DNA of 64,000 nt, taken from positions 1,661,501 to 1,725,500 of the forward strand of contig NZ_QURO01000004.1 of the NCBI RefSeq assembly GCF_003426945.1, read 5' to 3'. This stretch comes from Thermus sediminis. Lineage in GTDB: Bacteria; Deinococcota; Deinococci; Deinococcales; Thermaceae. The position numbers were made by a program, and so were the translations under genes. Below are positions 38,745-43,876 of this stretch, piece by piece (position 1 is the stretch's first letter; every line of letters starts with the position of its first letter). The notes beneath the pieces are model-generated. The model ran no database searches, was not told the DNA's origin, and saw only the letters and a program-made list of their open reading frames with translations.

Positions 38745-40910
38745 ATGGTGCGGGCTCCTCCCTCGGACCTCGCCTTCCTGGCGGAACTCCTCGCCCGCTA
38801 CCCGGTGCGGCTCGTCTACCGGGGTGAGGTTCTGCCCCAGGGGCCCGTGCAGGGGGAGAAGCTTTTGCAGGAGGGGGAGCTGGCCCTTTATTGGGAGGGT
38901 CCCAAGCCCCCAAGCCGGGGGGTGCGGGAGGCCTTGGCCCTCCTTTTGCGGGCCTTCCGGGAGCTCCTCGCCCTGCGGGAGCGGGAACTTGCCCTCCTCC
39001 AGGCCCAGGACGAGACGGCGAGGCTTCTTCGCCTCCTCCTTCACGAGATCAAAAACCCCCTCATGAGCATCCTGGGCGCCATGGAGCTCCTGGGGGTGGA
39101 GGGTCTGCCCGAGGAGGCTAGGGAACTTCTCCAGATCGCCAAGAGGAGCGCCAGGCGCATCCAAGAGCTTCTGCAAAAGGCCCAGGACTACCTGAGGCTG
39201 GGCCAGGGGGTCCGCCTCGAGGTGGAGCGGGTGGACCTGAAGGCCCTCCTCCAGGAGGCGGTGGAGGAGGTGCGCCCCTTGGCCCGCAGGAAGCGGATCG
39301 CCCTCCGCCTTACCCTGCCCCGGGGGGAGGCCTGGGCCTATGGGGACCGGGACTGGCTTTACCAGGCGGTGCTCAACGTCCTTTCCAACGCCGTCAAGTA
39401 CACCCCGGAGGGGGGGCAGGTGGCCGTGCGCCTCCTCCAGAGCCGGGATCGCTACGGCATCGCTGTGGCCGACACCGGCCCCGGCATCCCCAAGGAGGAG
39501 CAGGAAAAGGTCTTTGAGCCCTTCTACCGGGCCTCCACCCGGGGGGAAGTGGAGGGCACAGGGCTGGGACTGGCTCTGGTGAAGCGGGTCCTCGAGGCCC
39601 ACGGGGGCGAGGCACGCCTGAGGAGCCGCCTGGGCAGGGGAAGCCTTTTCCTCCTCCTTCTCCCCAGGCCCAGGCCCGGCCAGAGGGCCCCGGTGGGGCG
39701 GCTTCTCCTCCTCCTTCTCGCCCTCATCGCCCTGGCCCGGCTTCCCCTCTACCCGGCCCCCCTGGGCTCCAAGGCCTTCGGGGAGGTGCCCGCGGGGGAG
39801 GTGGTGCGCCTAAAGGGGTTGGAGCTGGCCTTTAGCCCCGAGGCCCGGGGGGAGGCCCGGAGGTGGCGGAGCCTCTGGGGTGGTGGAGAGCGGGTGCGGG
39901 TGGCCCTGGAGGCGGGCAGCGTGGAGGCGGTGCGGGAGGCGGCCATCCCCCTCACCCTCTCCACCCCGGAAGGGGAGGTCCGGCCCACGGGCACCCACCT
40001 GCGCCTTTCCCGGGAGGAAGGGGGGCGGGTTTCCCTCTACCGGGGCCGGCTGGCCCTGGGTGCCGAAGGGCTTCCCGCTGGGGAGGGGGTGGTCTTGGGC
40101 ACGGGGGAGCGGCGGAAGCTCCTCTCTGCGCCCCTGGTGCGGGCGGCCTATGGCCCCTCGGGGGAGGTGGTCTTCCGCCTCCTGGGCCCCGAGGGTAACC
40201 GGGGCTTTCGTGTGGAGGTGCGAAGCGGGGAGGCGGTGGTCCTTTCCGCCAAGGTGGCTGAGGCTTTGTTCACGTACGCTCCCCAGGCGGACCGGGTGAG
40301 CCAGGTGCGGGCCTTCGCCCTGGACGAGCTAGGCCTCGAGGGCTTCCCCTCGGAACCCCTTTCCTTTCGGGAGCGGAGGAGCTTTTACGAGGGGAAAGGG
40401 CGCCTCCCGGGGGACCCCCAAGGGGCCGAGGCCCATCTGAGGCGGGCGGTTGCCGCCTTCCCCGATGACGCCGAGGCCCTAGGGGAACTGGCCTTCGCCC
40501 TCTACCTCCAAGGCCGTCACGCCGAGGCCAAGCCCCTTTACGAGAGGGCCCTAGCCCTTCTGGACAGCCCCGACATCCGGGTACGCTATGGCCGCCTCCT
40601 CCACCACATGGGGCGCTACGGGGAGGCGGAGGCGAGCTACCGCCAGGTCCTCTCCCAGGACCCCGGGAACCTGGACGCCCGCTGGGGCCTGGCGGAGGTG
40701 GCGCTGGCCTTGGGCCGGGCCAAGGAGGCGGAGCTTCTCGCCCGCCAAGTCCTCCTGGTGAGGCCCGACTACCCCTTGGGCCGCTTCACCCTGGCCAAGG
40801 CCCTCCTGGAGCAGGGGAAGGGGGAGGAGGCCCGGAGGCTCCTGCAGGAGGAGCTCAGGGCCAACCCGGACCCCGAGGTGGGGCGCCTTTTGCGGGAGCT
40901 GGGAGAGTAG
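38745..40910 (+). CDS. Histidine kinase fused to a transmembrane helix, FecR-like domain and TPR repeats
   Basis: A 721-residue protein of unusual order. Residues 1-85: an uncharacterised N-terminal region ending in a coiled coil. Residues 90-310: cytoplasmic kinase with H-box LLHEIKNPLMSI (His100), N-box NVLSNAVKYT (about 211-220), DTGPGIP, FEPFYRA and GTGLGLALVK. Residues 318-332: one transmembrane helix (LLLLLLALIALARLPLY). Residues about 345-500: FecR-like beta domain, TPEGEVRPTGTHLRLSREEG then RVSLYRGRLALG and LPAGEGVVLGTG. Residues about 555-721: three to four TPR units (AEASYRQVLSQDPGNLDARW). The sensor part is thus C-terminal and periplasmic. It is followed by a receiver, a HEAT protein and a glycosyltransferase. 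Confidence 0.85.
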   Translation: MVRAPPSDLAFLAELLARYPVRLVYRGEVLPQGPVQGEKLLQEGELALYWEGPKPPSRGVREALALLLRAFRELLALRERELALLQAQDETARLLRLLLHEIKNPLMSILGAMELLGVEGLPEEARELLQIAKRSARRIQELLQKAQDYLRLGQGVRLEVERVDLKALLQEAVEEVRPLARRKRIALRLTLPRGEAWAYGDRDWLYQAVLNVLSNAVKYTPEGGQVAVRLLQSRDRYGIAVADTGPGIPKEEQEKVFEPFYRASTRGEVEGTGLGLALVKRVLEAHGGEARLRSRLGRGSLFLLLLPRPRPGQRAPVGRLLLLLLALIALARLPLYPAPLGSKAFGEVPAGEVVRLKGLELAFSPEARGEARRWRSLWGGGERVRVALEAGSVEAVREAAIPLTLSTPEGEVRPTGTHLRLSREEGGRVSLYRGRLALGAEGLPAGEGVVLGTGERRKLLSAPLVRAAYGPSGEVVFRLLGPEGNRGFRVEVRSGEAVVLSAKVAEALFTYAPQADRVSQVRAFALDELGLEGFPSEPLSFRERRSFYEGKGRLPGDPQGAEAHLRRAVAAFPDDAEALGELAFALYLQGRHAEAKPLYERALALLDSPDIRVRYGRLLHHMGRYGEAEASYRQVLSQDPGNLDARWGLAEVALALGRAKEAELLARQVLLVRPDYPLGRFTLAKALLEQGKGEEARRLLQEELRANPDPEVGRLLRELGE

Positions 40911-40923
40911 CTTTCACGGGGTT

Positions 40924-40951
40924 TTGACATCCCCTTCTTACCTTGTAGTTG
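40924..40951 (+). promoter_or_regulatory. Candidate promoter for the receiver gene (TTGACA, 16-base spacer, TAGTTG)
   Basis: In the 60-base gap after the kinase gene, TTGACA at 40924-40929 is a perfect -35. TAGTTG at 40946-40951 is a modest -10. GTAGTT occurs twice 10 bases apart (40945 and 40955), which may be a binding site. CGGAGG supplies a ribosome binding site before ATG 40971. Confidence 0.55.
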
Positions 40952-40970
40952 GGAGTAGTTCGGAGGTTGC

Positions 40971-41330
40971 ATGAGGGTTCTTTTGGTGGAAGACGACCCT
41001 TTGGTAGCCCGGGTGCTTGAGATGGTCCTCTCCCGGGCGGGCCATGAGGTCCACCTGGCCAAGGGCCTCCCCGCGGCCAAGGAGAGGCTCGCCGAGGCCT
41101 GGGAGGCCATCATTTTGGACCTGAACCTGCCCGGGGGGTTCGGCCTGGACCTCCTCCGCCACCTGCGCCAGGACCTGGGCAAGGCGATCCCGGTGATCGT
41201 TCTCTCCGGCCTGAAGCAGGAGAGGACGGTTTTGGAAGCCATGCGCCTGGGGGCCCAGGACTACCTCACCAAGCCCTTCAGCCCGGGCGAGCTGGTCCTC
41301 AGACTGGAGCGGCATGTGGCGAAAAGGTGA
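40971..41330 (+). CDS. Stand-alone response regulator receiver protein
   Basis: A 119-residue receiver with no output domain. LLVEDDPLVARVLEMVL supplies the acidic pocket, IILDLNLPGGFGLDLLRHLR the phosphoacceptor Asp50, VIVLSG the switch serine, and DYLTKPFSPGELVLRL the lysine (101). It is the likely partner of the kinase encoded just upstream and would act through protein contacts, possibly with the HEAT-repeat protein whose gene overlaps its 3' end by 17 bases. Confidence 0.95.
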   Translation: MRVLLVEDDPLVARVLEMVLSRAGHEVHLAKGLPAAKERLAEAWEAIILDLNLPGGFGLDLLRHLRQDLGKAIPVIVLSGLKQERTVLEAMRLGAQDYLTKPFSPGELVLRLERHVAKR

Positions 41331-42462
41331 GCGGCTCTACGCCCTCCTCGTCTTCCTGGTGGTGGCCCTCGAGGCCCTGGCCCTGGGCGGGCTCCTTTGG
41401 GTTTTTTCGGGGCGCCTCCTGGGTGCCTTTGACTACCCCTTGGCTAGGCTCTACCTCCTGCGGGGGCTTCTCCTCACCGCCCTGGCCCTCCTGGTCCTAG
41501 GGGCATACATCCTCCTTTACCACGTCTACACCTACTGGAAAGAGGTCCGGGATAGGGCCCTTTACGAGCGGTACCTCTCCACCTTTACCGAGGCCCTCTT
41601 CTCCGGGGGTAAACCCCCGCCCCCTCCTTGGCCGGAGCCCGCTCTGGAGGCCCTCTTGCACCTAAGGGAGATGCTAAAAGGGGAGATGGGAGAGAGAGTG
41701 TCCGGTTGGCTCCGGCAGGCCCGTCCGCCCTGGGTGTTTCGCCTCCAGGCCCGTTGGACCTCCCGCCCCGAGCGCCTCGAGGCCCTGGAGGCCCTGGGGC
41801 TCGCCCGACTTCCCGAGACCCTTTGGGCTATCCTTCCCTATCTGGAGCAGCGGGACCCCGTCCTCCGGCTGGCGGCGGCCCGGGCCGGGGCCCGGGTGGC
41901 CCAGGGAGAGGGGGTCCTTCACCTGGGTAAGGCCCTCTTGAGGGCGGGGCTCCCCCGGGGGGCCCTTCTGGAGGCCCTGCTCCTCCTGGAGGACCGGGGG
42001 GAGCCCGTGGCGGCCCTTTTTCTGGAAAAGGGGGGAAGGGAGGAGGTCTGGGCGGCCCTGGAGGCCACGGGCCGCCTCCATCTCCACGCCTTGGCGGAGA
42101 GGGTTCTCCCCTTCCTGGAGGCCGAGGACCCCGAGGTGCAGGCGGCCGCCCTCAGGGCCCTAGCCCGCCTGGGCTATCCCCTTGTGGGCCACGAGGGGGT
42201 GGTCTTGGGGCTTCTGACGGGTGGGGAAGAGTTCCTGAGGGTCCATGCGGCCCGCCTCGCGCCCCTTCTCCCCCAAAACCTTGCCAGAAGGGCCCTCTGG
42301 GAGGCCCTCGAGGACCCTTCCTTCTACGTGCGCCGGGCGGCGGCGGAGGCCTTGGCTACCCTGGACCTGGAACTCCTCAGGAAGGCAGCCGAGGCCCATT
42401 CCGACCCTTACGGCCGGGCCATGGCCGCCCAGGTGCTTCAGGAGGCAGCATGGAGTTCCTAG
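41314..42462 (+). CDS. Membrane-anchored HEAT-repeat protein
   Basis: A 382-residue protein. Two transmembrane helices (LYALLVFLVVALEALALGGL and LLLTALALLVLGAYILLYHV, about residues 8-30 and 50-70) are followed by a long cytoplasmic array of helical repeats of HEAT type (LEALEALGLARLPETLWAIL, DPVLRLAAARAGARVA, DPEVQAAALRALARLG, DPSFYVRRAAAEALATLD). No enzyme motif is seen, so it is probably a scaffold linking the receiver to the glycosyltransferase. It overlaps both neighbours, so the three are translationally coupled. Confidence 0.8.
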   Translation: MWRKGERLYALLVFLVVALEALALGGLLWVFSGRLLGAFDYPLARLYLLRGLLLTALALLVLGAYILLYHVYTYWKEVRDRALYERYLSTFTEALFSGGKPPPPPWPEPALEALLHLREMLKGEMGERVSGWLRQARPPWVFRLQARWTSRPERLEALEALGLARLPETLWAILPYLEQRDPVLRLAAARAGARVAQGEGVLHLGKALLRAGLPRGALLEALLLLEDRGEPVAALFLEKGGREEVWAALEATGRLHLHALAERVLPFLEAEDPEVQAAALRALARLGYPLVGHEGVVLGLLTGGEEFLRVHAARLAPLLPQNLARRALWEALEDPSFYVRRAAAEALATLDLELLRKAAEAHSDPYGRAMAAQVLQEAAWSS

Positions 42463-43876
42463 CCCCCCTCCTTTACGCTTACCAGGTCTTTATCCTCTAC
42501 TACTTCGCCCTCCTCAACTTCCTCTACGCCCTCTTCGCCGTCTTCGGCCTGGGCATGGTGGCCCGCTACGCCCGGGAGCTCTCGGAGCTCTCCCTCAAGG
42601 ACCTCCTGGAGCGGGAGGCCTACCTGCCCGTCTCCATCCTGGTCCCCACCTACAACGAGGAGAGGACCATCGTCCACTCGGTGCGCTCCTTCCTGGCCCT
42701 CCGCTACCCGGAGTTTGAGGTGATCGTGGTCTGCGACGGCCCCAAGGACCGGACCCTCGAGGTCCTGAAGGAGGCCTTCCGCCTGGTCCGGGTGGACTGG
42801 GTTTTCCGAAGGGCCCTCCCCACCAAGCCCATCCGCGGGGTCTACCGTTCCCTCGCCCACCCCAACCTCCTGGTGGTGGACAAGGAAAACGGGGGCAAGG
42901 CGGACGCCCTGAACGCCGGCCTCAACCTCGCCCGCTACCCCCTCTTCTGCGGGGTGGATGCGGACAGCCTCCTGGACCCCGAGGCCCTCCTCCGGGCGAG
43001 CCGGCTTTTCCTGGAGGACGAGCGGGTCCTGGCGGTGGGGGGGACCATCCGCCCCCTGAACGGGGCCAGGGTGCGGGAGGGCATCGTGGAGGAGCTCCGC
43101 CTTCCCAAGGGATTTCTGGAGAAGATGCAGATCGTTGAGTACGCCCGGGCCTTCTTCATGGGCCGGGCTGGGTGGAGCGCCATGAACGCCCTCCTCATCA
43201 TCTCCGGGGCTTTTGGCCTCTTCCGGCGGAGCGAGGCCCTGAGGGCGGGGGGTACCGCACGGACACCGTGGGGGAGGACATGGAACTGGTGGTCCGCCTC
43301 CACCGGAGGGCGCGGGAGGAGGGACGGGACTGCAGGGTGCTCTACACCCCAGACCCCATCTGCTATACGGAGGTGCCTGCCGACTGGGCCACCCTGAGGC
43401 GGCAGCGGAACCGCTGGCACCGGGGGCTATGGGAGGTCCTTTGGCTCCACCGGGCCATGCTCTTCAACCCCAGCTACGGCCGCCTGGGCCTGGTGGCCAT
43501 GCCCTACTTCTTCCTCTTTGAGGCCCTGGGGCCGGTGGTGGAGGTCTTAGGCTACCTCCTCCTTCCCGTCTTTTACCTCCTTGGGGTCCTCAACGCCGAG
43601 TTCGCCCTTCTCTTCCTCCTCCTGGCCCTGGGGTACGGGGTGCTCCTCTCCCAGCTGGCCATCGGCATGGAGACCCTTCTCCTCAAGCGCTACCCCAGGC
43701 TCCTTGACCGGGTGGTCCTCCTCTTCCTGAGCCTTCTGGAGGTGCTGGGCTACCGCCAGGTTCTGGCCCTGGAGCGCTTCCTGGCCACCTTTCAGGTCCT
43801 CAGGAAGCGGGGCCAGTGGGGGGAGATGCGCCGCAAGGGGTTAGAAGGCGAAAGCGCCAGGCCACCAGGATCCTGA
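42450..43876 (+). pseudogene. Family 2 membrane glycosyltransferase with a frameshift in a run of six G
   Basis: Two frames together give a complete processive-type GT2 of about 475 residues. Frame 1 from ATG 42450: membrane segment, VPTYNEERTIVHSVRSFLAL, VVCDGPKDRTLEVL, GGKADALNAGLNLARY and GVDADSLLDPEALLRA. It loses frame at GGGGGG (43247-43252). Frame 2 continues YRTDTVGEDMELVVRLHRRA, then RRQRNRWHRGLWEVL (QxxRW motif) and three or four transmembrane helices. One extra G restores GGYRTDTVGED. Unshifted frame 1 stops near 43397 without the acceptor motifs. It may be a mutation, a sequencing error or slippage. Family relatives make polysaccharides such as poly-N-acetylglucosamine. Confidence 0.85.

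Follow-up and report, generated by a model that had tools for sequence, protein, structure and literature searches.

Do four adjacent genes of Thermus sediminis form one signalling system, and what might such a system control? The genes lie in a 64,000-nucleotide stretch of contig NZ_QURO01000004.1 (the window, that is, the whole stretch analysed). They encode a histidine kinase with a FecR-like region and tetratricopeptide repeats (TPRs), a receiver-only response regulator, a membrane protein with HEAT repeats and a family 2 glycosyltransferase (GT2). A sequence-only reading of the window had taken all four as one system. We find that the conserved unit is receiver-HEAT-GT2, not the four-gene set, and that the kinase-FecR-TPR fusion, which accompanies it in Thermus and a single sister genus, is an add-on rather than an integral part. 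The four reading frames and their overlaps (17 bases between the receiver and HEAT genes, 13 between the HEAT and GT2 genes) were confirmed, and the features are as follows.

38745..40910, + strand: histidine kinase, 721 residues; conserved N-terminus and coiled coil 1-92, HisKA 93-155, HATPase_c 200-309, transmembrane (TM) helix 320-336, FecR-like/beta region about 340-545, then TPRs about 560-715
39702..39752, + strand: the single TM helix of the kinase, residues 320-336, positive side N-terminal
40911..40970, + strand: gap of 60 bp between kinase and receiver genes
40971..41330, + strand: receiver-only response regulator, 119 residues (Pfam Response_reg)
41314..42462, + strand: membrane HEAT protein, 382 residues (HEAT_2; two hydrophobic N-terminal helices and a solenoid)
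42450..43876, + strand: processive-type GT2 (PgaC/BcsA-like, with DADS, GED and QRNRW motifs), one gene split by a frameshift into two open frames, 42450-43397 and 43172-43876
43247..43252, + strand: tract of 6 G (7 in the nearest relative) between the DADS and GED motifs of GT2

A scan of the kinase-receiver gap for promoters and terminators gave no sigma-70-like promoter and no terminator match.

A Deinococcota GT2 profile served to search genomes of further phyla, reached through seeds from Erysipelotrichaceae, Chloroflexi, a cyanobacterium, Desulforhabdus and Bacteroidetes; phylum names follow these seed labels. There were 116 distinct GT2 genes, in six phyla. A HEAT match was adjacent to or fused with 113 of them, a receiver stood beside the HEAT-GT2 pair in 66 (in four phyla), and a YaiO-like barrel was encoded at most 4.5 kb away in 49. 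By phylum the counts were:

Deinococcota, 22 GT2 genes: HEAT 22, receiver 22, YaiO 0
Chloroflexota, 4 GT2 genes: HEAT 4, receiver 4, YaiO 0
Cyanobacterial phylum, 14 GT2 genes: HEAT 14, receiver 8, YaiO 2
Desulfobacterota, 9 GT2 genes: HEAT 8, receiver 0, YaiO 2
Bacillota, 13 GT2 genes: HEAT 12, receiver 0, YaiO 0
Bacteroidota, 54 GT2 genes: HEAT 53, receiver 32, YaiO 45

It can be seen that the receiver-HEAT-GT2 module, with or without YaiO, occurs in at least four phyla, and HEAT-GT2 alone in two more. At one locus of Desulfobacterota (L193) a receiver lies one gene off, past the YaiO gene. Background sequence (470 kb, all of it over 3.5 kb away from the module GT2 genes) contained no HEAT match and six receiver matches, so the linkage of both to GT2 is above chance. 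Since the HEAT profile had been trained on some of the surveyed loci, Pfam calls served as an independent check, and HEAT_2 exceeded its cut-off in L145, L155, L159, L178, L183, L224, L226 and L229. In nine of the 13 Bacillota genes, GT2 shares one frame with a HEAT-like N-terminal half, giving proteins of about 940-960 residues; among these fusions HEAT_2 is above its cut-off in L155 (31.6 bits) and below it in L147, and the upstream part of L150 is split. Proteins that occur fused in this way generally act in contact with each other. The frameshifted GT2 of the window might raise the suspicion that the genes are chance neighbours or an assembly artefact, but the order is conserved in six phyla and in independent assemblies, by which that explanation is refuted for this locus and is scarcely credible. 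The locus is apparently the Thermus edition of a widespread class of HEAT-partnered, often receiver-linked polysaccharide synthases, undescribed in the open-access literature; no description of a receiver-HEAT-GT2 system was found there, and as only open-licence papers were covered, its novelty is unproven.

What, then, are the components of the conserved unit? The HEAT protein of the window scores 46.3 bits against HEAT_2 (cut-off 27.7). Its predicted model (predicted local distance difference test score, pLDDT, 87.6) has N-terminal helices at 6-35 and 41-97 and a solenoid at 108-381. Fold searches with this model gave alphaRep/HEAT-type proteins as the best PDB matches, that is, a generic HEAT/armadillo solenoid with no functional clue. 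The C-terminal part of the HEAT protein has a conserved surface (D334, R340, H362, D364), which is a candidate docking site for the phosphorylated receiver. HEAT protein and GT2 are present in the identical 23 of 27 Thermus genomes, and of 121 relatives each of the 33 with HEAT also has GT2. The receiver of the window, described earlier as having no output domain, indeed shows Response_reg alone in Pfam, and retains the acidic pair, the phospho-acceptor Asp50, Ser79 and Lys101. The corresponding acidic residue, Asp, Ser/Thr and Lys are kept in 19 of 19 module-linked receivers, the majority of which are output-less. Receiver-only regulators have no DNA-binding part. When 47 GT2s were placed on a tree, receiver linkage changed four times, as against 13.4 times in shuffles, although L160, L167, L168 and L177 were scored receiver-less in spite of receiver-bearing proteins near each. 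This result indicates that the receiver link is old or was repeatedly gained, rather than scattered.

The GT2 domains of the fourth gene are present as had been read from the letters, but not in one reading frame. The gene is intact in relatives and broken in the window by loss of one base at 43247-43252 (6 G, not 7); all other aligned copies (about 30 loci in about two dozen genomes) read through here without a break. Where the window was aligned with the nearest relative, no other coding indel is left uncompensated. It is either an assembly or sequencing slip or a natural synthase mutant. An intact orthologue (L115) scores 135.2 bits against the PgaC/IcaA model TIGR03937, for which the curated cut-off is 422. 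Other copies of the locus are broken elsewhere, by an internal deletion of the HEAT gene in G019 (L116) and a HEAT frameshift in G031 (L137). The operon is often disrupted, as exopolysaccharide (EPS) genes tend to be.

Taken together, the module looks to us like a synthase-dependent polysaccharide system in which a synthase with a HEAT subunit is gated by a phosphorylated receiver, a reading toward which the evidence leans modestly. In this mechanism GT2 would be the inner-membrane synthase and extruder of an exopolysaccharide, and the HEAT protein, with its two TM helices and cytosolic solenoid, would be its obligate partner, in the manner of a co-polymerase. The lone receiver, once phosphorylated, would bind the HEAT solenoid and so turn the synthase on or off. 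Its main source of phosphate in Thermus would be the kinase encoded next to it, whose external FecR-like/TPR part might sense the state of the envelope or of the polymer. Gene content, linkage, the HEAT-GT2 fusion in other lineages, the conserved phosphorylation residues of the receiver and the intact kinase motifs are observed, whereas we infer the kinase-receiver pairing, the receiver-HEAT binding, which way control runs, what polymer is made and what is sensed; gating is probably by protein contact, not by transcription. The idea that receiver and HEAT subunit act on the synthase by contact is well grounded, because receiver-HEAT-GT2 is a conserved unit in several phyla and because Bacillota have HEAT-GT2 fusions.

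Several observations weigh against this gating. First, HEAT-GT2 occurs without an adjacent receiver at all 13 Bacillota loci and most of those of Desulfobacterota, so that some function of HEAT independent of the receiver is required. Secondly, no receiver-HEAT fusion was found in the loci. Thirdly, the YaiO family PF19413 was matched in none of 101 Deinococcota relatives, Thermus included. Fourthly, GT2 of the window is disrupted, and so is the locus in several other Thermus. Finally, in genus g12, which belongs to another family, a kinase of the same architecture (38-42% identity over its full length) adjoins an OmpR-type regulator with a Trans_reg_C domain. The receiver-less loci, together with 22 of the 54 Bacteroidota loci that also have no adjacent receiver, would suit an alternative in which HEAT is purely a structural or assembly subunit and the receiver, though encoded nearby, serves some other purpose (as a phosphate sink, say, or as an input to other regulators) and makes no contact with the synthase. 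This we consider unlikely: a receiver beside the pair in 66 of 116 cases in four phyla contrasts with the six matches of the background, the receiver and HEAT genes overlap in Thermus, and in L195 and L229, where the upstream protein is longer, it nevertheless ends in a receiver, adjoining HEAT.

How firmly does the kinase belong to the module? That the fusion is an assembly join, the outcome which the sequence-only reading had named as fatal to it, is ruled out by full-length uninterrupted copies in 19 Thermus genomes (the T. sediminis window included) and by the sister genus (G028), which has all four genes and a kinase of 60% identity. The kinase is frameshifted in two more Thermus, G022 (L007, a 6-G/7-G tract) and G024 (L117). 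In G006 and G010 it is gone while receiver-HEAT-GT2 is kept, a TPR remnant being left in G010. T. scotoductus (L008:10001-11275; the same genome as G011) carries a single deletion spanning kinase to GT2, by which kinase residues 1-271 are joined in frame to the C-terminus of GT2 as a 424-residue chimera. No kinase of the Thermus type accompanies receiver-HEAT-GT2 in two other Thermaceae or in more distant Deinococcota families. In g12, no HEAT or GT2 was found. Therefore, since the kinase is dispensable and variable across lineages, we rejected the four genes as one fixed system; what holds of that proposal is receiver-HEAT-GT2 as a unit, whereas the kinase fusion is missing from the module in most lineages and lost or broken in several Thermus. 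Histidine kinases with unrelated sensors lie beside the module in some Bacteroidota (a GAF-PAS hybrid in L224, a similar one in L225). In L136 what seemed to be a neighbouring kinase was not counted, as it is an opposite-strand open stretch of 219 residues without an H-box histidine.

The kinase may instead be an envelope-stress sensor whose main target is a DNA-binding regulator from another part of the genome; on this view its position next to the Thermus module is incidental. The g12 arrangement and the retention of the module without kinase in G006 and G010 speak for such a role. We nevertheless find it rather improbable, because an intact kinase is kept by the receiver in 19 Thermus and the sister genus, and because T. 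scotoductus lost everything from kinase to GT2 in one deletion. Two side observations concern these kinases. In Thermus G004 (L113:9998-12406) a 2.7-kb opposite-strand insert, carrying an 802-residue open reading frame with a weak TPR match, parts the kinase from receiver-HEAT-GT2. At the g12 loci L110:1863-6881 and L112:13970-17074, large GAF-PAS-GGDEF-EAL proteins are encoded close to the kinase and the OmpR-type regulator.

The domain order of the kinase had been described as a catalytic part at the N-terminus, one TM helix and then TPRs, and this was borne out (HisKA 93-155, HATPase_c 200-309, helix 320-336, TPRs about 560-700). The protein has both domains of a two-component histidine kinase, with H (100), N (211), D (243), F (257) and G (271) boxes intact. 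Because its only hydrophobic helix, 320-336, is directly preceded by the basic stretch RPRPGQR, the catalytic half is predicted to lie in the cytoplasm and the FecR-like/TPR part outside. The FecR domain that had been proposed is less certain: a FecR-like stretch is present, but it scores 16.0 bits against PF04773, under the gathering cut-off of 24. PF04773 matches were weak in 11 of 15 members of the kinase family (best E 4.9e-4). A profile-profile comparison, run together with an unrelated control, gave E 0.0014 with the TP...GT..f motif in register and a probability of 17.6%, which is suggestive only of FecR identity. An AlphaFold model of the external part, made from seven near-identical sequences, was rejected as unreliable (pLDDT below 50 at residues 74-225). 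A PDB sequence search with the external part returned erythropoietin-receptor matches only, which we judged to be chance. The order had earlier been called the reverse of the usual one. FecR-type anti-sigma sensors have an N-terminal cytoplasmic output, one TM helix and an external FecR-like domain, so the supposedly reversed order would be the normal order of FecR proteins. The Thermus kinase has this order in common with them; it differs in that its output is a histidine kinase and its FecR similarity is sub-threshold.

Is the polymer exported and modified by genes of the same loci? YaiO barrels above curated cut-offs were found in L178, L193, L217, L222, L224, L226, L227 and L229, and several of the YaiO proteins have N-terminal TPRs resembling those of PgaA. 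The fullest set, in L224, consists of the GAF-PAS hybrid kinase, a lone receiver, HEAT, a fusion of GT2 with a domain of the sulfatase superfamily and, encoded on the other strand, a TPR-YaiO protein. Apart from its control subunit, this arrangement agrees with how synthase-dependent systems have been defined (PMC7112194). Fusion of GT2 to a sulfatase-superfamily (LtaS/OpgB-like) domain was seen in the Bacteroidota loci L224:6752-10186, L223, L225 and L226, Pfam confirming it in L224 only; perhaps this domain adds phosphoglycerol or phosphoethanolamine to the polymer. A further protein with a 'KG(I/V)(N/D)....PGY(F/Y)' stretch is common to L146:6726-8816 and to genes downstream of GT2 in L179, L181 and L182. 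In these HEAT-GT2 operons of Bacillota and Desulfobacterota it looks like a glycoside hydrolase, and the region had no Pfam or NCBIfam match in L146 or L181. The external TPRs of the kinase are the sole TPRs of the Thermus operon.

Direct control of polysaccharide synthases is best known through cyclic di-GMP (c-di-GMP). The same control, as in cellulose and poly-N-acetylglucosamine (PNAG) synthases, could apply here, the receivers being remnants or partners of diguanylate cyclases; receiver-GGDEF proteins do lie directly upstream of HEAT-GT2 in L187:13135-14046, L195:11911-14415 and L229:4633-6195. Yet the receivers are mostly output-less, neither PilZ nor any other domain that binds c-di-GMP is listed by Pfam for the HEAT and GT2 proteins, and no GGDEF gene is in the module of Thermus, the sister genera or most other lineages, which makes this quite improbable. 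Gating by the receiver may be put more broadly, as a tentative proposal that we would not yet call probable: in a class of synthases that spans phyla, a phosphorylated stand-alone receiver would dock on the HEAT co-subunit and gate the enzyme post-translationally, in replacement of the c-di-GMP of cellulose/PNAG-type machines, and the external TPRs of the Thermus kinase would also replace the TPR scaffold of the exporter and report polymer export. If true, receiver gating would mean that biofilm or capsule synthesis can also be controlled by a two-component system acting through protein contact, and would give a testable function to many genes annotated in isolation as 'HEAT repeat' or 'response regulator'. 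Thermophilic versions of the module may suit structural work.

Among known systems, E. coli YaiO/YaiP has a YaiO-type outer-membrane barrel, the type matched here by TIGR04390 and PF19413, encoded with a GT2; the likeness lies in this pairing, and no HEAT or receiver partner is known there to us. NTT nucleotide transporters of bacteria are reported to carry fused HEAT repeats, and so also join a membrane protein to HEAT repeats; they are transporters, not glycosyltransferases, with no receiver link to our knowledge. The closest comparison is with synthase-dependent EPS systems, defined by a GT2 synthase, a c-di-GMP-binding domain or co-polymerase, a periplasmic modification enzyme, and a periplasmic TPR protein with an outer-membrane pore (PMC7112194). 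The c-di-GMP-binding domain in this definition has no counterpart among the Pfam matches of the HEAT and GT2 proteins, no periplasmic modification enzyme was found among the window genes, and no periplasmic TPR protein with outer-membrane pore in the window operon, YaiO being absent from Thermus. The inner-membrane synthase of the definition is present, with Pfam GT2 family matches and conserved DADS, GED and QRNRW, and the TPR/outer-membrane barrel is matched by the module in Bacteroidota and some others. As in cellulose (Bcs), PNAG (Pga/Ica), alginate and Pel synthesis, the module combines an inner-membrane processive GT2 with a small membrane partner, but the place of the control subunit is taken by a membrane protein with HEAT repeats, in many cases together with a lone receiver.

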